From Planctomycetales bacterium (lineage in GTDB: Bacteria > Planctomycetota > Planctomycetia > Pirellulales > Pirellulaceae), in the NCBI GenBank assembly GCA_020426925.1, contig JAGQPC010000220.1:1-35206 (forward strand): a DNA stretch of 35,206 bases, written 5' to 3'. Every line of letters begins with the position of its first letter. Within the stretch, counting starts at the first letter, position 1. The notes under the pieces are model-generated. The model had not been told where the DNA came from. It saw only the letters and a list, made by a program, of their open reading frames with translations, and searched no databases. This document shows, piece after piece, positions 5,019-35,206 of this stretch. The position numbers and the translations under genes are program-made.

Positions 5019-7964
5019 TTACGGACGAGAAATCGTTTCGTGAAGATTCAGAATAATGCGAGCTGCCGAAGTTAGCGCCGCAAGCTGGTCAGCCGGAACG
5101 CCACTGCTTACCGCACGTTCACCGACAGACGCAATCTCTTTTGCCGCTTGTTCGTCCGCTCGATATTTCGCTAAGTGCTTGTCGTGAATCGCCCGCAGAA
5201 TGTTTAGCTCTTCCGGATTAGGCTGGCGAGACGTCGCTCGCTGGAACATCCACGCGATCTGTTCAGACGCGGTTTTTCCGCTTGATTCCGCGACCAGCTC
5301 CGCCAAACAGCGTGCAGCCTCGACGTAAGTCGGATCGTTCAGCAACACCAATGCCTGCTGCGGAGTGTTTGACCTCGGTCGTTCGACGGTGCATTCTTCT
5401 CGGCTGGGAGCATCAAACGCCAACATACTCGGGTGCAGGAACATGCGTTGCCACCACGTGTAGAGCCCTCGCCGGTACAGGTTTTCGCCTTTATCGTGTT
5501 GCCAGGTGCGTGTCGGAAAGTTCATGTGTCGCCAATAACCCCCAGGTTGATACGGTTTCACGCTATCCCCACCGATGCGACGCACGAGCAAACCGCTGAT
5601 TGCTAGCGCATTGTCGCGCACAACTTCAGCATCCAAGCGTCGTCTGTTTTGCCGAGCATAAAGCTGGTTATACGGATCCGCGGCCTTGAGCTTTTCCGAA
5701 ACGACAGACGATTGCCGGTAAGTGGCCGACATCACTAGCATCTTTACTAAAGCCTTGACGTTCCAATTCTGATCGACGAATTCGGTGGCAAGATAATCCA
5801 GCAATTCTGGATGCGTGGGCCGGACTCCTTGTGCTCCTAAGTCGTCGAGTGGCGTGGCCAAACCCTGGCCGTAAAACAGCTTCCACATGCGATTGACGAA
5901 CGTTCTGGCCGTTAGCGGGTTGTCCTCATGGACGATCCAGTTTGCCAAATCGAGTCGCGTTGCTCGTTCAGCTGCGTCCGCGGCAAGGCCGAAGTCTCCC
6001 AGGAATGTTGGTACGGTCGGAGACATTACTTCTCCCGAATCGTCTTGCCAATTTCCGCGAGGCAACAGACGAATCGTGCGTGGTTTCGTCGAAACCGTCA
6101 TCAATGTCTTTGGAAGCGATTTTTGGAAGTTGTCTCGATCTGCCGTGGCCTTTGCGACTTGATCGACAATCGATTTCAGCTCAGGCGTCGCCTGCTGGAA
6201 CTGCGATGTGATGATTCGCTTCTGTTCGTCTGTTCGCTTTTCCGCCGCTACAGTGATCGCCGCTGCCAAGGATTCGTTAACCTGCGATCCATTCAACGAA
6301 AAGTAGAAACCTGCTTGGCCGCCGTCATTGACGATCTTTATGAGCAGCTGGTTCTTGCCGGAGTTCAGACGCAGCTTTGCCGAATCTTGATTTGCGGCCG
6401 CGCCGCGGCGAGCCGTGTTCTGAAACGCAACTTCGCCATTGAGCCAAACGATGATTCCGTCGTCGCTTCCCAGTGAGACCACCACTTCCTGTTCAGATTC
6501 GGCAACAACTTCGCGGTAAAGGAACCACGATTGCCGTTCTCCCGAAAGTGCATGTACCTTGTCGTCCACGAAGTCGGGCTTCTCACCCCACTTGAGGCCA
6601 CCGGCTTCGGCAGCGACATCTATTGCACCCGGGTCGACCGGTTCTCTAGTAGGTTCAAATTCTGTGTCGAACGAGTCGTGTGGAAACGGGCCGAGCATCG
6701 ACCAGTGTGTGAGTTGCGGACGGTTCGCCAACGCTGTCGCAATCGACTCTTCCCAAGCCTTTTGCGCCTCCGACATTTCGGCAGTTGTGTCATTTAGCTG
6801 TTTCTGCAGCGATTCAATTGTTCGATTGAACTCGGCGAGTCGCTGATTCGCAGCATCGTCGACGACCGGGTACGCAGCGGGATTACCGACGCCTTGCTCC
6901 GAAATGTCCGCAAAATACGATGCAAAACTGTAAAAGTCTCGCATCGTGAACGGGTCGAACTTGTGGTTGTGACATTCCGCGCAACCGAGCGTCACCCCTA
7001 AGAAGATGGATGCCGTATTCCGAACGCGATCGGCTGAGTACTTCGCGAGATACTCTTTTGCCTGCGCGCCTCCTTCGTTCGTCGTTTGCAGGAGCATGTT
7101 AAAACCGGATGCAACCTTGTGTTCGGTCGTTGCGTCTGGCATCAGGTCGCCAGCAAGCTGTTCCGTGACAAAAAGGTCGTACGGCTTGTTCGAATTAAAA
7201 GCGTTGATGACATAATCTCGGTACGGTGAAATCAGGCGGGGCTCGTCCGAGTGATAGCCATTACTGTCCGCGTAGCGAACGACATCCAGCCAGTACATCG
7301 CCATTCGCTCACCAAAGTGGGGCGACGCCAACAAGCTGTCGACTAGCTTCTCGTAAGCTTCCGGCGATTCGTCGCGCACAAATGCGTTAACATCGGCGAT
7401 TGACGGTGGCAGGCCGAGCAAATCGAAATGAAGTCGCCGAACAAGCGTAATCCGATCCGCTTCGGGCGACGGTTCTAGATTGGCAGCTTGGATTTTGCTC
7501 AGAGTAAAAAGGTCGATGTCATTTTGGATTGACGGATGGTCGATGTTCGGAATGGCAGGCTTGACCGGCTTTTCAAATGCCCAGTGAGTGTCCCATTCTG
7601 CGCCGCTGGCGACCCACTGTTTCAAATGATCGATCTGGTCGGCGGTCAACGATTTCCCTGAATCAGCGGGCGGCATGCGGACTTCAGGATCATCACTCGT
7701 AATACGACGAATGAGCTCGCTTTCATCTGGCTTCCCTTTCTGAATCAGTCCGTCATGGTTTGCGACACTCTCTTGCAAATCGAGCCTCAGGTCAGCTTCA
7801 CGAGCGTCATCATCCGGGCCATGACACGCGAAACAGTTTTCGGAAAGCACTGCTCTCACTTGTCGGTCGAAGTCTACGTCCGCCGCTGGCAGCAACGCAC
7901 CAGCGCTGATTACAAATGCACAAGCCAGAAACGATCGAAGCGATGAAACGGTTGAGGTAGTCAT
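5019..7964 (-). CDS. PSCyt1-DUF1549-DUF1553 protein with jelly-roll insert
   Basis: A 981-residue exported planctomycete cytochrome-type protein. Signal peptide about residues 1-28 (ending LLPAAD). A PSCyt1 domain follows, with heme motif CFACH at 44-48 and the downstream RMPP (96-99) that commonly carries the Met ligand. DUF1549 covers about 150-355 and contains a second CXXCH (CAECH, 328-332) in the conserved CAECHNHKFDPF block. Residues about 418-560 form a beta-sandwich insert (SWFLYREVV, SDDGIIVWLNGEV, NQLLIKIVNDGG) like the PA14/jelly-roll carbohydrate-binding modules of glycosidases. DUF1553 fills the C-terminal third (RTFVNRMWKLFYGQGL to LNLHETISRP). It precedes DUF1501 in a probable operon. 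No clear Shine-Dalgarno was seen before the ATG. Function is inferred only: a periplasmic redox protein linked to polymer degradation. Confidence 0.9.
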   Translation of the reverse strand: MTTSTVSSLRSFLACAFVISAGALLPAADVDFDRQVRAVLSENCFACHGPDDDAREADLRLDLQESVANHDGLIQKGKPDESELIRRITSDDPEVRMPPADSGKSLTADQIDHLKQWVASGAEWDTHWAFEKPVKPAIPNIDHPSIQNDIDLFTLSKIQAANLEPSPEADRITLVRRLHFDLLGLPPSIADVNAFVRDESPEAYEKLVDSLLASPHFGERMAMYWLDVVRYADSNGYHSDEPRLISPYRDYVINAFNSNKPYDLFVTEQLAGDLMPDATTEHKVASGFNMLLQTTNEGGAQAKEYLAKYSADRVRNTASIFLGVTLGCAECHNHKFDPFTMRDFYSFASYFADISEQGVGNPAAYPVVDDAANQRLAEFNRTIESLQKQLNDTTAEMSEAQKAWEESIATALANRPQLTHWSMLGPFPHDSFDTEFEPTREPVDPGAIDVAAEAGGLKWGEKPDFVDDKVHALSGERQSWFLYREVVAESEQEVVVSLGSDDGIIVWLNGEVAFQNTARRGAAANQDSAKLRLNSGKNQLLIKIVNDGGQAGFYFSLNGSQVNESLAAAITVAAEKRTDEQKRIITSQFQQATPELKSIVDQVAKATADRDNFQKSLPKTLMTVSTKPRTIRLLPRGNWQDDSGEVMSPTVPTFLGDFGLAADAAERATRLDLANWIVHEDNPLTARTFVNRMWKLFYGQGLATPLDDLGAQGVRPTHPELLDYLATEFVDQNWNVKALVKMLVMSATYRQSSVVSEKLKAADPYNQLYARQNRRRLDAEVVRDNALAISGLLVRRIGGDSVKPYQPGGYWRHMNFPTRTWQHDKGENLYRRGLYTWWQRMFLHPSMLAFDAPSREECTVERPRSNTPQQALVLLNDPTYVEAARCLAELVAESSGKTASEQIAWMFQRATSRQPNPEELNILRAIHDKHLAKYRADEQAAKEIASVGERAVSSGVPADQLAALTSAARIILNLHETISRP

Positions 7965-23102: not shown

Positions 23103-23372
23103 TTAAATTCCAGTATTTGAAAGAGCATTCGCGATCCGGCCGATCAGCTCAGCTGCTTTCGGATGGTCGGCTTCCCATGATAGCACCATCGAGCGCAGCA
23201 ACGTAGCAAGCGAATGTGAATCACTTGACGATTCCTGACCGTCGTCAAGCAACCGGTGGATGTCTGCCGTTACATCGCGAAGTTGACGCGCTGAGTCCTC
23301 GTCCACATGCTGAGCGGACGCCAGGTGCTCGTGTAGCTTTTCAATAGTCTCGAGTAGCTCGGATTTATCCAT
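23103..23372 (-). CDS. DUF4404 family protein
   Basis: An 89-residue soluble helical protein that fits DUF4404: a leading ELLETIEKLHEHLAS helix, a middle RQLRDVTADIHRLLDDG segment and the conserved end WEADHPKAAELIGRIANALSNTGI. The family has no known function. The ATG at 23372 is supported by TGAGGA (minus strand, 23382-23387). It is convergent with the hpf gene and divergent from the usp gene, within the putative stress cluster. Confidence 0.78.
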   Translation of the reverse strand: MDKSELLETIEKLHEHLASAQHVDEDSARQLRDVTADIHRLLDDGQESSSDSHSLATLLRSMVLSWEADHPKAAELIGRIANALSNTGI

Positions 23373-23726
23373 AGCGGATCTTCCTCAGGTCTTCAGGACA
23401 AGTGTCTCCACGAAGGAAATATAGACGCAGTTACGTGACATGACTACGGGAAAGCTGGCCAACCAGGTTGCATTTCTCGATTCGACCAAGTAACAAGCGG
23501 CCCTCCAAATCCTTGCAAGCGCGTCGCAGTTGTGTCACTTCCGTTCCGAGATCGCTCGGTTGGCACGGTGCTTGCAATGTCTGTCGTGGCTACGAGATTC
23601 TTTGGCAAGAAAGTCGTCAAAGGCTTATGTTGACTGGACGTAGGGCAGTTGTTGGAAGTTTGTGGCTGTTTCAAGTAGCTGACGTCTATCCACAAATCGA
23701 GAATCGCGAGCACAAAGGATGTGAAA
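23373..23726. other. 354-base divergent regulatory region
   Basis: This stretch separates DUF4404 (minus) and usp (plus). It carries the sigma-54 promoter at 23560-23576. GTGTCAC (23532-23538) lies just upstream of it, and an opposite-orientation GTGACA (23435-23440) about 90 bases further up; these might be activator half-sites. No small ORF with an RBS was found. Confidence 0.6.
23560..23576 (+). promoter_or_regulatory. Sigma-54 promoter upstream of usp
   Basis: TTGGCACGGTGCTTGCA matches the RpoN consensus YTGGCACGRNNNTTGCW at every defined position, with the invariant GG (23562-23563) and GC (23574-23575) exactly ten bases apart. Transcription would start near 23587 and leave a leader of about 140 bases before usp. 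Such promoters need an AAA+ enhancer-binding activator; none is encoded here. Confidence 0.82.
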
Positions 23727-24161
23727 ATGAAATGGTTTAACAATAAACGAATTCTGGTTCCGTTCGATTTTTCGGACGCGTGCTTGGACGCGATTGGTGT
23801 GGCCAAGGCCCTGGCTGTTGACACTTCAGACATTCACGTCATCCACGTGCTCGAAAACTTACCAGCCACATCACCGTTGTCGATTTGGGATCCCGAAGCT
23901 GACGAACATCGGAAGGAAACGGCACGAAAAGCCATCAAGGACAAGTTGGCGGATCTGGATATTTCTAACGTTCATTTGGACGTCAGCATTGGCAATCCAG
24001 CCCGAGTTGTTGCTGACCTCGCAAAGGACATTGAGTGTGGACTGATCATCATTCCTTCGAACAGCCGTTCAACTATCGAACGTTTTTTAATCGGTTCGGT
24101 TGCCGAACGCGTCGTCAGACTGGCACCGTGTCCGGTATTGGTCCTCAAAAACGGCGTATAG
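23727..24161 (+). CDS. Universal stress protein (UspA family)
   Basis: A 144-residue single-domain Usp. The start is the ATG at 23727, with AAAGGA (23714-23719) seven bases upstream; a GTG at 23721 in the same frame is only one base from that RBS and is rejected. The fold signatures are clear: RILVPFDFSD at the N-terminus, HVIHVLEN, the central DVSIGNPARVVADLAKDIECGLIII, and the C-terminal IGSVAERVVRLAPCPVLVLK. The ATP-binding loop, normally G-x-x-G-x9-G-S/T, reads S-N-S-R-S-T-I-E-R-F-L-I-G-S, so the first glycines are missing and nucleotide binding is doubtful. Expression under sigma-54 (promoter at 23560) is predicted. The histidine kinase starts 100 bases downstream on the same strand. Confidence 0.92.
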   Translation: MKWFNNKRILVPFDFSDACLDAIGVAKALAVDTSDIHVIHVLENLPATSPLSIWDPEADEHRKETARKAIKDKLADLDISNVHLDVSIGNPARVVADLAKDIECGLIIIPSNSRSTIERFLIGSVAERVVRLAPCPVLVLKNGV

Positions 24162-25395: not shown

Positions 25396-26117
25396 ACGAC
25401 ACGAAGTCCATTCTTGTTGTCGATGATGACGAAGACATTGCGGCTAACATGAACGATATCCTGAGTGACATGGGGTATCGAGTCGACGTAGCTCACAATG
25501 GCGAAACCGCTCTGAGCCATCTTACGCGCAAGGCCTACGACATCGCGTTGCTCGACTACAAAATGCCTGACGTCGACGGTGCGACACTCTTTTCGCAAAT
25601 GAAGCTGCTACAGCCTGGCTTAGCAGCGATTATGATCACCGCATTTGCTAATAGTGAAGATGTCCGTCGAGCGACGTCGAACGGTGTGACTAACGTGTTG
25701 CGAAAACCGGTTGACTTGCCGCAACTCTTCGAATCGATCGCTGACGTTTGCGATCGGCCACTTGTGCTGATCATTGACGACGATGACGACTTTAGTCATT
25801 CGCTCGAAGACATTTTACGCGAACACAACTATCGAGTTGGCAGGGCTACCGACGTAGCTCAAGCAAATGAATGCCTCGCTACGCTCAGATTTGACGTTGT
25901 CGTGCTTGACCTGCGACTCGGCAATCATACGGCGGAGAAAATCCAATTCGGCGGCAACCAGTGGCCGACCGCCATTCTGACAACTGGGTACACGTCAGAA
26001 ATGTCTAGCCTGATCAAATTGCTGCAAGAGCGTGGCGTCAAAGCTGTGCACAGGAAGCCCGTCGATACAGACGATCTACTGCGAGATGTGTCGAACGTCG
26101 CTCAATCAGCTCGCTAA
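25392..26117 (+). CDS. Double-receiver response regulator without output domain
   Basis: A 241-residue protein of two CheY-like receiver domains and nothing else. Receiver 1 (about 6-118) has Asp11/Asp12, phosphoacceptor Asp55 (LLDYKMPD), the T/S site in MITAFA and Lys105 (RKPVD). Receiver 2 (about 125-238) has the acidic cluster IIDDDDDF, phosphoacceptor Asp173 (VVLDLRLG), and HRKPVD. No DNA-binding or enzymatic domain follows. The start is a TTG that overlaps the kinase stop (ATTGA arrangement); AGGAG at 25379-25383, eight bases upstream, supports it and suggests translational coupling. It most likely receives phosphate from the FixL-like kinase and passes it on or acts through protein contact. 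Its end overlaps the convergent dockerin gene by four bases. Confidence 0.9.
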   Translation: MNDTKSILVVDDDEDIAANMNDILSDMGYRVDVAHNGETALSHLTRKAYDIALLDYKMPDVDGATLFSQMKLLQPGLAAIMITAFANSEDVRRATSNGVTNVLRKPVDLPQLFESIADVCDRPLVLIIDDDDDFSHSLEDILREHNYRVGRATDVAQANECLATLRFDVVVLDLRLGNHTAEKIQFGGNQWPTAILTTGYTSEMSSLIKLLQERGVKAVHRKPVDTDDLLRDVSNVAQSAR

Positions 26118-27415
26118 GCTTCGCCTGACCTGTTCTGGTCTTTGTCCGTATCGGCTCGCAAACAATCGAGACGTTTTGCAAACAGTGAATCGACGACGAG
26201 GACAGCACTAGTTTGCGGTTTCAAAGTATCGTTCGAGGAAACCGACGATCCTACTGAGCAGTCAGTTGCCGAGTTTTCTCCGGGCGATACGGTAGAGTTT
26301 TTCTGTTCCGGACCAACCTGCTTCGATTGCCTGGTCACGACTTCCCATGAGGCCGGGAAGTCCAACTGGTTGTGTTGCGGTCCGGCACCGGAAACATAGG
26401 TCCCGAACGCGAACGCGTTCACGAGATCGCCCGAGTCGAAATCACCAGTGCAATCCCAGTCACCTTCTGCCCACGTTGAATTCCGTATCACGCCGTCATC
26501 GTATTCATTCGCTTTGAAGACAAGCACAAGGTCACCTGAGTCAAACTGGCCGTCCAAATTCGAATCGCCGATGGAGGTGCCGATCACCGCCTCTATCAAA
26601 TAGTCAAAATCAACTCCGTTTATACTACCGCTGCCATCAATGTCAAAACGTGAATCAGTGTCACCGTGTTGGACGGCTGAACACAGTATGTCGATATCTT
26701 CGACGCCAACTTGGCCATCGGCGTTGAAATCGCCTTCGACATCAGCCGGTAAAACCTCGATTATGACGGTAGCTTCAGCGGATCCTTCGTTGCCATCTAG
26801 CGCGCGATAGGTAAAGCTGACGGCATCTTCGTGTTCGCCACTGTGCAAGTAGGAAAACGATCCGTTCTGGTTCAATGTCAATTCACCGTGAACTGGCCCG
26901 GTAACCAGTTCAACGGTGAGTGCGTCTCCATCAACGTCCAAATCGTTGCCTAGCACACCGGGAGCAGCAACCGCAAGTGCTCCACCTTGCTCGAGCGAGT
27001 ACACATCATCATTCGCGGTCGGAGCATCGTTGAGCGGATCAACAAAAACTGAGACCGTAGCCGTGTCACTGCGCGTTCCATCCGACACTTGATAGACAAA
27101 CGAGTCGGCCATCACTTCTTCGCCATTATGCTGGTACGCAAATGCTCCATCGCTGTTGAGCTGCAATGTCCCGTGTTGCGGACCGGAAACCAGCGACGCG
27201 GTTAGGACGTCGCCTTCTGCATCAGAATCGTTGGCAAGGACACCAGCGGGGCCGACGCTTAGCAGGCCTCCTTCTTCAACAAAATACGCGTCATCTACCG
27301 CGACCGGCGAATTGCCGGTAAGCATTCGGCGGTATTCCAAAGATTCGCACCACAAACGGCGTTGAAGATTTTTAGCCCGCACGCGTTTTGCCAGCCAAAA
27401 TGAGAGACGTTTCAT
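26114..27415 (-). CDS. LEPR-XLL protein with cadherin-like and dockerin domains
   Basis: A 433-residue secreted or surface protein. The N-terminus (KRLSFWLAKRVRAK, then CESLEYRRMLTG at 23-34) is a LEPR-XLL-type motif, the planctomycete N-terminal tag that replaces an ordinary signal peptide in many giant surface proteins. Two tandem cadherin-like/tandem-95 domains follow, at about 36-128 and 132-222; each starts A-x-D-D-x-Y and has VLxND-D-D/G-D, GTLxLNxDGxFxYxH and SFxYxxxDG motifs. Residues about 227-345 hold dockerin-I-like calcium loops (DFNADGQVGVEDIDIL, DIDGSGSINGVDFDYL, DSNLDGQFDSGDLVLVF). The C-terminal ~80 residues are low-complexity. It resembles the end of much longer adhesins; at this size it is a short member, complete at both ends. 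Confidence 0.85.
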   Translation of the reverse strand: MKRLSFWLAKRVRAKNLQRRLWCESLEYRRMLTGNSPVAVDDAYFVEEGGLLSVGPAGVLANDSDAEGDVLTASLVSGPQHGTLQLNSDGAFAYQHNGEEVMADSFVYQVSDGTRSDTATVSVFVDPLNDAPTANDDVYSLEQGGALAVAAPGVLGNDLDVDGDALTVELVTGPVHGELTLNQNGSFSYLHSGEHEDAVSFTYRALDGNEGSAEATVIIEVLPADVEGDFNADGQVGVEDIDILCSAVQHGDTDSRFDIDGSGSINGVDFDYLIEAVIGTSIGDSNLDGQFDSGDLVLVFKANEYDDGVIRNSTWAEGDWDCTGDFDSGDLVNAFAFGTYVSGAGPQHNQLDFPASWEVVTRQSKQVGPEQKNSTVSPGENSATDCSVGSSVSSNDTLKPQTSAVLVVDSLFAKRLDCLRADTDKDQNRSGEA

Positions 27416-27821
27416 ACAGTTTTACTCATGGGTAGGCGGGTCTGTTTCGAAACGACAACGGCTCGCGACGCCCGTTTTTCAGTGGCCAACAAAGCAAAAG
27501 CCGACAAAATGATTGACTTCATTGCGACATTTCGACAACGTAGAACGATGCGAAACGTACACGCACTCCTTTATTGATGATGCTCGGCTTCTCCAATTCC
27601 GGCAACAATGGTGGTTACCGAATGTGAGGATCAGCACGTCGGTTTGGGACTGTTACGCGGGTTGGCTTCGCAAACTTATCACCCAGTTGGGGGTTGCTTC
27701 AGCCTTGAGTTCTTCACAGAGTTCCGCTTCGTGACACGGCAAACCAACATGGCACAGCCATTGCTTTGGTTGGTGACGTTCTCAAATCCTATTCAAAACG
27801 TTCTTATCAGGAATACCGCCC
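27416..27821. other. 406-base divergent intergenic region
   Basis: The region lies between the dockerin gene (minus) and the small membrane protein (plus). It carries the sigma-54-type promoter at 27749-27765 and GTGACAC at 27731-27737 just upstream. A 73-codon plus-strand frame at 27513-27734 has no RBS and no protein-like pattern and is not called. Confidence 0.55.
27749..27765 (+). promoter_or_regulatory. Sigma-54 promoter for the 58-residue membrane protein
   Basis: ATGGCACAGCCATTGCT matches the RpoN consensus except A for Y at the first position and A for G in the CACG block; GG (27751-27752) and GC (27763-27764) are ten bases apart. The predicted start near 27776 gives a 46-base leader to the ATG at 27822. 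Confidence 0.75.
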
Positions 27822-27998
27822 ATGGCTAGTTACCAAAGGCTTGAAACTGAAAAATACTGGTACGAAGTGCAGCTTGAACGTGAGGCCGAAGAGAAAACAA
27901 ATCGCCGCCGCAAGACGGGCGAGAAGGTCGCGTTCTACGCCGCAGCGATTATCTTCGCCATCGTTGGTTTTGTCGTCGCAATCCAGTTCTTCATTTAA
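27822..27998 (+). CDS. 58-residue single-pass membrane protein
   Basis: A very short gene: MASYQRLETEKYWYEVQLE, then a charged helix rich in Glu and Arg/Lys (EREAEEKTNRRRKTGEK), then one transmembrane helix at about 36-57 (VAFYAAAIIFAIVGFVVAI) that ends at the C-terminus (QFFI). The positive charges before the helix predict cytoplasmic N-terminus and a tail anchor. AGGA at 27809-27812 lies nine bases upstream of the ATG, and a sigma-54-type promoter starts 73 bases upstream. No family is recognised. Its promoter links it to the sigma-54-driven usp gene 4 kb away, so a role in the same stress response is inferred, perhaps binding a cytoplasmic partner at the membrane. Confidence 0.78.
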   Translation: MASYQRLETEKYWYEVQLEREAEEKTNRRRKTGEKVAFYAAAIIFAIVGFVVAIQFFI

Positions 27999-28059: not shown

Positions 28060-28068
28060 TGCGATAAG

Positions 28069-28101
28069 ATGTTGCTCCTGTCATTCGGAAGGGAGCAACA
28101 T
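28069..28101 (+). promoter_or_regulatory. Hairpin covering the RBS and start codon
   Basis: ATGTTGCTCC (28069-28078) pairs fully with GGAGCAACAT (28092-28101) across a 13-base loop, with G-U pairs possible at both ends of the stem. The right arm contains the Shine-Dalgarno core (GGGAG, 28091-28095) and the first base of the TTG start. In the mRNA this would block ribosome entry unless opened. Confidence 0.6.
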
Positions 28102-28856
28102 TGAAAATCGAATCAAAATTCACAAAGGCTACTCTGCACGCGCTGTTCCCTACGCTCATCTATCAAGACCAGCTAGACCAGCATTCTGAATTTCACCAGG
28201 CATTCACGTCACTCGATGACGAACATTTCTTCTCGCCCTCAACCGCTGGCGGAAAGCGGCATCATGCCGGCGAATACCATGGGCGGATTCTGCTACACAA
28301 AGAGCCGTCATTGCGTCCGTTCTTTGAATGCCTAGCCCTCCACGTTGGCAGATATTTGCGTGAATTGGGAATGCGCACAGACGTGTTTGAAATGCAATGC
28401 CTCAAAAGCTGGTTAGTGCTCTGCGATCCGGAAGACGAAGACGAACCTGAGGCCATGATCGCTCACAATCATTCGTGCAGCGATATTTCATGGGTCTACT
28501 ACGTCGACGTTCCGGAAGATTGCCCAGCGATTCAATTTCACGCAGGGCGAAAACTCGGCAACCAGTTGTTCGAATCTGGTTTTCACTTCGATTGGAACGA
28601 TTCGACAAAGTCAGCGGTTAAGACGTTCAACTGCTGGAATAGCGAAACGTGGTCGATCCATCCGAAACAGGGAGACCTGTTGCTCTTTCCCGGCCACCAG
28701 TTGCATTCGGTCGAAGCCAACTACAGTAAACGACGCCGCACGTCAGTTGCTGGTGACATCGCGTTGACATTACGGAAGCAACAAAAGGATTTAGAGTACG
28801 GAAGAACGTCGCCCGAGCATTGGCTGACGCTTAGTCTAGGTGACAACGAGCACTAG
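28101..28856 (+). CDS. Putative 2OG-Fe(II) oxygenase
   Basis: A 251-residue protein resembling the 2OG-Fe(II) oxygenases of the double-stranded beta-helix fold (2OG_FeII_Oxy_5 group). Landmarks: HNHSCSDISWVYYVDVPED (His122, His124 region, candidate proximal ligands), then IHPKQGDLLLFPGHQLHSVEAN with distal His202, and RRRTSVAGDIAL where an Arg near 212 could bind 2-oxoglutarate. The usual H-x-D/E second ligand is not evident, so metal binding is uncertain. The start is a TTG with GGGAG five bases upstream; the RBS lies in a hairpin (28069-28101). Substrates of this group are mostly unknown; hydroxylation of a protein or small molecule is expected. As a possible oxygen-consuming enzyme next to an oxygen-sensor cluster it may be coregulated, but that is inference. 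Confidence 0.65.
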   Translation: MKIESKFTKATLHALFPTLIYQDQLDQHSEFHQAFTSLDDEHFFSPSTAGGKRHHAGEYHGRILLHKEPSLRPFFECLALHVGRYLRELGMRTDVFEMQCLKSWLVLCDPEDEDEPEAMIAHNHSCSDISWVYYVDVPEDCPAIQFHAGRKLGNQLFESGFHFDWNDSTKSAVKTFNCWNSETWSIHPKQGDLLLFPGHQLHSVEANYSKRRRTSVAGDIALTLRKQQKDLEYGRTSPEHWLTLSLGDNEH

Positions 28857-32989: not shown

Positions 32990-34654
32990 TCACGCCTTGC
33001 GACACCTACGCGCTAAGACGAAAGTCAGCACCAGATAGGCGGACACATGCATCGAAGTTGGTTCAGGGACGGTCTGCGTGAGCCAATCGAGATACACCTC
33101 TAAATTCGTATAGCCACCGCCGCTCAGATTTGTGGCACCGGCATCGAGTGGATCGTTCGGGTCTAGCGTGAACATTCGCTCAAAGTCGTCACTGATTCCA
33201 TCTCTATCACGATCGAACGTCGACGGTCGAACTACCAACATCTCCTGATGGATGCCCGGAACTTTGCCATCGATAGCAAACTCAAATTGACTGTTGATGA
33301 TTCCGCCAGTACGAGTTTCCAGTTCATCGATGACTCGTTGGTCGATCGCGTCACGCCACAAAGAAGGCCCACCCGATGCGAGCAGTCTATCGTACGCTTC
33401 TTCGGCGGAAACGAGTGCGTCAGCAACCGTCTCAACAAACGCAAATGGCTCAGAGTCTGCGGGCGTCATCAGCCGATCTGTCCGCTCGAAGCCTACATAG
33501 TGTCTGCGAGCGTCAGAATCTTCGATTAAGAATCCGTCGTGTTCGCCGTCTCGGTCTATGTCGAGGTAATTACCGGTCACGAATAGCTCTGTGTGGCCTT
33601 CGCCGTTTTCGTTGAACGCGCGAGCCGAAAGCGTAGCAGGACCGGTCACGAAGTAGTTCCCTATCGAATTTACGTGGACTGTCCCAAGGTTACTGCGATG
33701 ATTCGCTTGCTCTTGCCAATCGAAAACTACATTGTTGATGAAGTTGACGTCTGTCATTCGTCGTTGGTCTTCGGTTTGGCCGAGGTCTAGATTCTGCTGT
33801 CCGCCGAACGACGGATTGCGATGTGTATTGTGCGCCCATAGGTTGCCGTAAAACGTGTAGCCACCTTCGTTGTTGGCGTGTTCTTCGACTGTAACTTCAC
33901 CTCGCACTAATGAACCGTAGCCGTGAGCTCCCTTGTAATGGAACGAGTCATTAAGCGAATTGAAGATCAGCGAATGTTGGACGGTAACGTTTTTCGAAAG
34001 AGTCACTGACAACGACTCGTCCATGCCCCACGCGGCCGAAACATGATCAAGAATGACTCGGTTCGAGCCGACCACGCTTAGCGCATCGGCCGAATCTGCG
34101 ATCAGATCCATGCGACCGTTACCTTGCCGAGGCTCCAAGGGCGTTCCGTTTTCGTCGGTTCGCATAGCGTTAAAATCCCCAGTGCGAAAGCGAAGGTATC
34201 GAACGACGACGTCTTCCGCGTTTGCGATGAGCGTGTTGTATCCCCAAACTGAAACACCGGTTGGCGACGTCTGCCCGGCAAGAGTTAGGCGATCTTGTGA
34301 AATAACCAGCGGTCTTGATAACTCGATTCCTCCGCCCACGTCGAACACGATGGTGCGCGGACCAGAAGCGGATTCGATTCCGTCGCGGAGGCTGCCCGGG
34401 ATCTTAGCGTCGAGCTGCCCATAATCATCACGATTCGTGACGTGGTAAACGTCACCGCCTCGGCCGCCCAAAGCCACTGCGCCTTGGCCGACTGCTCCTG
34501 GAAACGCAAGCAATGCGGGTCCAGCAGCTTGCCCGAAAGCGATCGACGTGATACTACTCAGAACGCAGCCGACAAACATTGCTTGTACGATTACGCGTGC
34601 AAAATGGCAACTACCGTGCTGATGTGATCTGCTCACGAATTTCGAATCAAGCAT
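32990..34654 (-). CDS. Pectate-lyase-like PEP-CTERM protein
   Basis: A 554-residue exported protein. The N-terminus carries a long signal peptide (about 1-43, ending SITSIAFGQA). AFPGAVGQGAVALGGRGGDVYHVTNRDD and GSLRDGIESASGPRTIVFDVGG are the hallmark start of pectate-lyase-like right-handed beta-helix proteins (PL1-type); later rungs include NVTVQHSLIFNSL and INNVVFDW. Near the C-terminus DRDRDGISDDFE is a calcium-binding TSP3-like loop, and the end is PEP-CTERM (VPEPTS, hydrophobic segment, ARRCRKA). The start is ATG 34654: GGAG lies five bases upstream, and it overlaps the preceding gene's stop by eight bases; the frame extends to a TTG at 34681 without an RBS. Lyase activity is plausible but the catalytic Arg/Lys set was not assigned. 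Confidence 0.85.
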   Translation of the reverse strand: MLDSKFVSRSHQHGSCHFARVIVQAMFVGCVLSSITSIAFGQAAGPALLAFPGAVGQGAVALGGRGGDVYHVTNRDDYGQLDAKIPGSLRDGIESASGPRTIVFDVGGGIELSRPLVISQDRLTLAGQTSPTGVSVWGYNTLIANAEDVVVRYLRFRTGDFNAMRTDENGTPLEPRQGNGRMDLIADSADALSVVGSNRVILDHVSAAWGMDESLSVTLSKNVTVQHSLIFNSLNDSFHYKGAHGYGSLVRGEVTVEEHANNEGGYTFYGNLWAHNTHRNPSFGGQQNLDLGQTEDQRRMTDVNFINNVVFDWQEQANHRSNLGTVHVNSIGNYFVTGPATLSARAFNENGEGHTELFVTGNYLDIDRDGEHDGFLIEDSDARRHYVGFERTDRLMTPADSEPFAFVETVADALVSAEEAYDRLLASGGPSLWRDAIDQRVIDELETRTGGIINSQFEFAIDGKVPGIHQEMLVVRPSTFDRDRDGISDDFERMFTLDPNDPLDAGATNLSGGGYTNLEVYLDWLTQTVPEPTSMHVSAYLVLTFVLARRCRKA

Positions 34655-35206
34655 GGCATCTCCGCGATCGGCAACGAGCAACTACAAATGCCACGACGAT
34701 TAACTGCATCGCAGAAGTTGACGGTTCTGGAACGGCAACGGTGAGCGTGACGGTACCCCAATGCACTTCCGGTTTGATCGGATTGGATATGGGACGTTTC
34801 GTTTCAAAGTTCGCCAAGAACCGAATTTCTGTTCCGGGCTCTGCAGATGGCGAGATCTTGACGACAGAAGTCAGGCGAAAATCTGGACCACTGACGCTGG
34901 GCAACAGTTCGGATAGTTGTTCTTCCTCAAGCCACTCCACATTCGGATCGTCAGTGAAAAGGCGAAGACGATTTCGGCCAGTGTAAACCAAAACGTTTTC
35001 ACCCGGATTTACGAGTCCATCGCCATTTCCCGTTCCGCGACTGCCGAACCGGTCTCTGCTGACATCTTGTCCATCGTCGATGAGGATCTCCTCAAATTCC
35101 GCGACTTCAAACAGTTCCGGGACAAACACTTCTTCTCGCCGCCCGTCAGAGAATTCAATGTCAAAACGGATTCGGTGATCGATACGATTGTCAGGAGCGG
35201 GCTTGG
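34647..35206 (-). CDS. PEP-CTERM protein, 5' part outside window
   Basis: The frame is open to the right edge of the window (residues such as APDNRIDHRIRFDIEFSDG precede the first in-window GTG at 35129), so only the C-terminal ~186 residues are present. Visible parts: NGDGLVNPGENVLVYTG, which resembles the start of a CARDB/NEW-type or calcium-loop beta-domain, a beta-rich segment ending VHWGTVTLTVAVPEPST, and a PEP-CTERM tail (hydrophobic AMQLIVVAFVVA, then RCRSRRCHA). It overlaps the pectate-lyase-like gene by eight bases (ATGCTTGA), which implies one operon of two exosortase-sorted surface proteins. Function is otherwise unknown. Confidence 0.8.
   Translation of the reverse strand, partial: KPAPDNRIDHRIRFDIEFSDGRREEVFVPELFEVAEFEEILIDDGQDVSRDRFGSRGTGNGDGLVNPGENVLVYTGRNRLRLFTDDPNVEWLEEEQLSELLPSVSGPDFRLTSVVKISPSAEPGTEIRFLANFETKRPISNPIKPEVHWGTVTLTVAVPEPSTSAMQLIVVAFVVARCRSRRCHA

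Follow-up and report, generated by a model that had tools for sequence, protein, structure and literature searches.

A 58-residue single-pass membrane protein gene with a predicted sigma-54 promoter, and its conserved family in the Pirellulaceae

The window, a 35,206-nt stretch of DNA from a Planctomycetales bacterium, derives from one MAG (83% complete, 6% contamination). A divergently oriented gene occupies positions 26114–27415, and a short open reading frame preceded by a match to the sigma-54 consensus lies beyond it. The features considered here are as follows.

27750–27764, plus strand: predicted sigma-54 −24/−12 promoter element TGGCAC-AGCCA-TTGC (TGGCACAGCCATTGC), from the sequence, a genome-wide position test and relatives
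27776–27821, plus strand: predicted 46-nt 5' leader, its start placed from the geometry of the −12 element
27809–27812, plus strand: AGGA ribosome-binding site, 9 nt before the ATG, from the sequence
27822–27998, plus strand: gene for a 58-residue single-pass membrane protein, from the ORF, its coding score and a family of 32
27831–27860, plus strand: conserved N-terminal motif Y-Q-R-L-E-T-E-K-Y-W, residues 4–13, from three family alignments
27927–27995, plus strand: predicted transmembrane helix, residues 36–58, from hydropathy across 31 members and AlphaFold2
28101–28856, plus strand: 2OG-Fe(II) oxygenase (PF13759), the downstream same-strand gene, from Pfam (1.1e-14)

Translation of positions 27822–27998 gives the protein MASYQRLETEKYWYEVQLEREAEEKTNRRRKTGEKVAFYAAAIIFAIVGFVVAIQFFI, which begins at an ATG and terminates in IQFFI. 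An earlier note had reported a 58-residue ORF with a ribosome-binding site, and both were located as described. Its remark that the frame falls below usual gene-calling limits was overstated: the ORF spans 177 bp, above the minimum of roughly 90 bp applied by common gene callers. The coding score of the frame, 0.143 per codon (0.07–0.28 for the genes of the window), ranked first against the 308 non-gene ORFs of at least 40 residues in the window. The synonymous-codon component alone ranked 50th and was uninformative, so the coding signal is mostly one of amino-acid composition. The 12 residues preceding the helix carry a net charge of +4. AlphaFold2 returned a single long helix at low overall confidence with a pLDDT of 91 at residues 41–50, and the predicted helix is confident in its membrane portion only. 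Taken with the family described below, the sequence evidence indicates that the ORF is a genuine gene.

The putative promoter element has the canonical 10-bp spacing from GG to GC, and the other six core bases all match. Its deviations are an A after TGGCAC, where G is preferred, and an A before TGG. With the C of TTGC counted as −12, transcription is predicted to start near 27776, in agreement with the near-consensus promoter and leader proposed earlier; the element lies 72 bp from the start codon. Besides this element, only weak sigma-70-like sites were found in the intergenic region around the small gene. Across the 9.15-Mb genome there are 39 matches to the bare sigma-54 pattern, defined by ten fixed bases, and 26 to its reversed control, so the sequence match alone is weak evidence. 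Position is more informative, since 23 of the 37 sites outside the window fall within ~300 bp upstream of a correct-strand gene, compared with 1 of 26 in the control; a site so placed is therefore very likely functional. This census covers perfect-core sites only.

Components of the corresponding machinery were identified in the same genome, namely a partial RpoN match at a contig end (PF04552, 33.5 bits) and 24 matches to the enhancer-binding domain PF00158, ~19 of them strong. Among the products of genes located behind sigma-54 sites are DabA, an Mrp/NuoL-like antiporter subunit, a nitrite-reductase-like flavoprotein, a PPDK-type enzyme, hemerythrin, CBS, CsrA, GroEL, an exosortase, a TrkA-type channel, an NtrC-type regulator, a histidine kinase, a PP2C phosphatase and a protein kinase, with the universal stress protein gene at 23721 in the window as a further target. 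These targets agree with a published PSSM survey of Planctomycetia, in which the UspA, GroEL, CsrA and ZraR/NtrC COGs were sigma-54-enriched (PMC12316311). The second perfect element of the window (23561–23575) lies upstream of the universal stress protein gene (23721–24161). Next after that gene come a PAS histidine kinase and a double-receiver response regulator, and beside the element are an HPF-like gene (22594) as well as a DUF4404 gene (23103–23372, minus strand). Elsewhere in the genome, at a minus-oriented locus on contig C771 (~5127–5228), a further perfect element, TGGCACGCCGCTTGC, precedes a strong AAGGAG site by 37 nt; behind that site is a 34-residue single-helix ORF, MYLPALLIFAGAVLATSVVLCFIRPVGSGDPFYV, for which no convincing homologue was found among 199 family genomes.

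Single-sequence searches of the family, the phylum, viral contigs, GTDB contigs and plasmids returned nothing significant for the 58-residue protein. Three weak matches from one other genus proved to be short ORFs that share its N-terminal sequence (LSTEKYW or LSTVKYY); in each, a perfect sigma-54 element lies 108–138 bp upstream of the ATG. A four-sequence profile, followed by a 22-sequence profile, was searched against all 241 family genomes and recovered 32 members in eight genera of the Pirellulaceae. The genus that gave the weak matches has members in 25 of its 28 genomes, and the rest come from seven further genera, counting that of the window and one weak case (G029). A GTDB scan with a close subset yielded 8 Mariniblastus/Pirellulaceae records and gave Mariniblastus as the main genus; the bulk of the family belongs to Mariniblastus and allied MAGs. 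Three candidates (G191, G066 C13 and G187 C22) were excluded because they have either no N-terminal motif or no satisfactory start.

Family members are 56–94 residues long, except for an interrupted copy in G118 with an in-frame TAG after residue 32 and an intact promoter; it is either a natural pseudogene or a sequencing error. The N-terminal motif common to the members is YQxLxTEKYW, or YxxLx[ST][EV]KY[WYF] in its family-defining form. Members also share a ~34-residue positively charged segment, predicted to be cytosolic, and one helix near residues 35–53. For the 31 members of sufficient length, the helix was placed at residues 34–56 without exception, and the 12 residues that precede it always carry a net positive charge, from which an N-in topology is predicted. 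Description of the protein as tail-anchored holds for the window copy and for G050 but not for the other relatives, in which 13–41 residues follow the helix and many carry a conserved MPxWLP stretch directly after it. Pairwise dN/dS was 0.03–0.27 over 13 of the closest pairs, a fourteenth being saturated at synonymous sites; by this measure the relatives are under strong purifying selection. The earlier note had named loss of the frame in related genomes, or equal synonymous and non-synonymous change, as grounds for rejecting the gene; neither pattern was found.

No family match was obtained in Pfam, NCBIfam or PDB. A Pfam DUF4825 hit was rejected, as its E of 0.012 is below the cut-off and 1 of 23 members matches, and PDB profile matches (best E 0.012, a neuropeptide Y receptor helix) were rejected as composition matches. 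On sequence criteria, the members form an undescribed family of small bitopic Pirellulaceae membrane proteins.

Promoter conservation was scored independently of membership, as members were found by protein profile only and the promoter played no part in recruitment. An element was counted if GG-N10-GC and at least 5 of the 6 other core bases occurred within 150 bp upstream of the start codon. Such elements precede 26 of the 32 members, compared with 3 of the 297 other genes at the same loci (Fisher p ~1e-29); after clustering at 60% identity the figures are 17/21 and 3/297 (p ~1e-21). The element lies 55–140 bp from the start codon across members. The remaining six (G602, G613, G604, G027, G606 and G029) have no good element within 150 bp, and G027 and G606 carry versions matching 4 of the 6 bases.

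A second conserved signal was detected further upstream in the relatives. In exhaustive dyad counting, GTTGC-N6-GCAAC was present in 13 of 23 non-redundant upstream regions, whereas in shuffles no dyad reached more than 4. For the longer form, TGTTGC-N6-GCAACA at 9/12 matches or better, 45 occurrences were observed against 2.4 expected, a ratio that overstates the number of independent events because it was counted on related sequences; the non-redundant count is the safer figure. The dyads are positioned 60–120 bp upstream of the sigma-54 promoter and, where doubled, are commonly 31–33 bp apart (e.g. −90/−58, −101/−69 and −102/−70 from the −24 box), a spacing of about three helical turns that places them on the same DNA face. 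TGTTGC-N6-GCAACA looks like an activator site in the relatives, with the geometry expected for an enhancer-binding protein. Searching the 241 genomes for the exact dyad with a sigma-54 element at a gap of 40–70 gave 16 matches and 9 in the control, settings too narrow for the result to bear on a wider regulon. The window copy has no recognisable dyad (best 8/12, shuffle P 0.55), which suggests either divergence of its activator or a site degenerate beyond recognition. No dyad common to this genome's own 29 sigma-54 promoters was found, and no enhancer-binding protein gene adjoins any family member. Separately, in G066 and G187 the leaders that separate the small gene from its sigma-54 site (L174 and L175) contain a conserved hairpin, AGTTC-ACCTCCGAC-GAACT, whose loop holds an anti-Shine-Dalgarno-like ACCTCC; this hairpin may be regulatory.

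The gene neighbourhood bears on whether the promoter is private to the small gene, as had been proposed. In most relatives the small gene looks monocistronic, and often it is followed by a convergent gene. At the window locus the claim may not be strict, since the oxygenase gene follows on the same strand, 103 bp past the stop codon, with no canonical terminator between. The window promoter might accordingly serve mainly a two-gene transcript of the small gene and the oxygenase, and a very stable hairpin at 28068–28104 (12-bp stem, z −4.2), which overlaps the oxygenase ribosome-binding site, would be compatible with separate translational control. The hairpin itself is possibly a translational switch or the sign of a misplaced oxygenase start. 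Such a transcript is unlikely to be the main role of the promoter, although it deserves weight, as the pairing of promoter and small gene is kept in relatives whose downstream gene is convergent or another one. Oxygenase relatives in the family are only 23–27% identical and unlinked to the small gene, and the oxygenase is possibly a read-through partner in this genome only. Overall, the data support a regulated small membrane-protein gene under a private sigma-54 promoter.

Neighbouring genes are conserved within Mariniblastus but not between genera. The Mariniblastus copies have a PolX-like gene upstream, and two aldehyde-dehydrogenase-like genes and a deoxyribose-phosphate-aldolase-like gene downstream, all identified by reading the sequences. 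No partner is indicated by the neighbourhood because it differs between genera. The same observation weighs against the small protein being part of a larger membrane complex, such as a respiratory oxidase or a transporter, as a structural or assembly subunit co-made under sigma-54 control. The constant single helix, the fixed-length cytosolic segment and the MPxWLP stretch of many relatives would suit a subunit, and membrane energy systems (DabA, the Mrp/NuoL-like antiporter subunit and the TrkA-type channel) are among the sigma-54 targets. The small gene never adjoins complex genes, however, and no known small-subunit family was matched in Pfam, NCBIfam or PDB, which leaves a subunit role rather improbable.

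A membrane-damaging peptide that slows the cell in the manner of a type I toxin is very unlikely. The protein is short, single-helix and tightly regulated, as such a peptide might be, but its charged 34-residue cytosolic domain, conserved motif and purifying selection are unlike short hydrophobic type I toxins, and there was no sign of an antisense RNA: an Rfam search of the window gave no match, and only one weak promoter-like site was found on the opposite strand. A chance origin of the ORF and promoter match is practically negligible, for even though the bare pattern is only 1.5-fold commoner than its reversed control genome-wide and single-sequence searches gave no significant homologue, it is contradicted by the 32-member family, dN/dS values that do not exceed 0.27 in the pairs tested, and the promoter frequency of 26/32 against 3/297.

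Two characterized systems resemble the locus in different respects. In regulatory logic, the closest analogue is PspG of the enterobacterial phage-shock response, likewise a small inner-membrane protein with its own sigma-54 promoter; pspG lies outside the main operon and is listed as a sigma-54/PspF target in its own right, with a dedicated enhancer (PMC4987338). The upstream motif of the present family is a different one, and its protein has one helix at a constant position. PspG is described with more than one helix. When 23 members were scanned against Pfam and NCBIfam at E ≤ 1, no Psp family (PspB/C/D/G) was matched. In promoter anatomy, the closest analogue is the single-gene PEP-CTERM unit controlled by PrsR and sigma-54, which shares the same control layout of an activator motif, a ~63-nt spacer, the −24/−12 element and ~71 nt to the start codon, and whose cis motif was found only in Proteobacteria (PMC1569441). 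The activator motif is TTTACA in those units and TGTTGC-N6-GCAACA in the family relatives; moreover, the 58-residue protein has a charged N-terminus and lacks a signal peptide and the VPEP and C-terminal arginines. Judged by sequence, neither PspG nor the PEP-CTERM units are relatives of the small protein. Three other window proteins (3493, 32990–34681 and 34647–35129) end in a PEP-CTERM-like VPEP, helix and arginines, and an exosortase gene elsewhere in the genome has a sigma-54 element 287 bp upstream.

Small proteins of the CydX, AcrZ, KdpF and MgtS type have one helix and fewer than 100 residues, are often stress-induced and modulate membrane enzymes. The family shares the single helix and the size; it differs in that no sequence relation was found and no target enzyme gene adjoins the small gene. 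By analogy, we infer a partner-modulating role for the small protein.

The reading preferred here, at a probability of about 0.62, is a small membrane factor that is activated through an enhancer-binding protein under a stress or nutrient signal and modulates a partner. Sigma-54 RNA polymerase would wait silent at the small-gene promoter until such a signal activates an NtrC-type enhancer-binding protein, which would bind upstream, at the dyads in relatives and at some other site in this genome. The protein would then insert N-in/C-out into the inner membrane, where the ~34-residue cytosolic segment headed by YQxLxTEKYW may engage a partner in the cytosol or the membrane and alter its activity or location, in the way that small membrane proteins of the PspG, CydX or AcrZ type do. 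We infer promoter use, the start site, the N-in topology and activation by stress from the features above. What the members have in common is their regulation, the fixed cytosolic segment that carries the motif, and one helix; the most economical account is a stress-induced factor acting via a partner. A more specific proposal, tentative and on balance doubtful, is a dedicated enhancer-binding-protein circuit of the Pirellulaceae whose conserved output is this one small membrane protein, an effector of envelope or energy stress playing a phage-shock-like part with unrelated components.

Homology searches easily overlook small membrane proteins, and this family emerged from weak matches and profile iteration. 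The planctomycete sigma-54 regulon would thereby gain an unannotated output that is unlikely to surface in COG-based surveys (PMC12316311). The paired TGTTGC-N6-GCAACA at 32 bp is a predicted activator motif, and would make the regulator directly testable in Mariniblastus.
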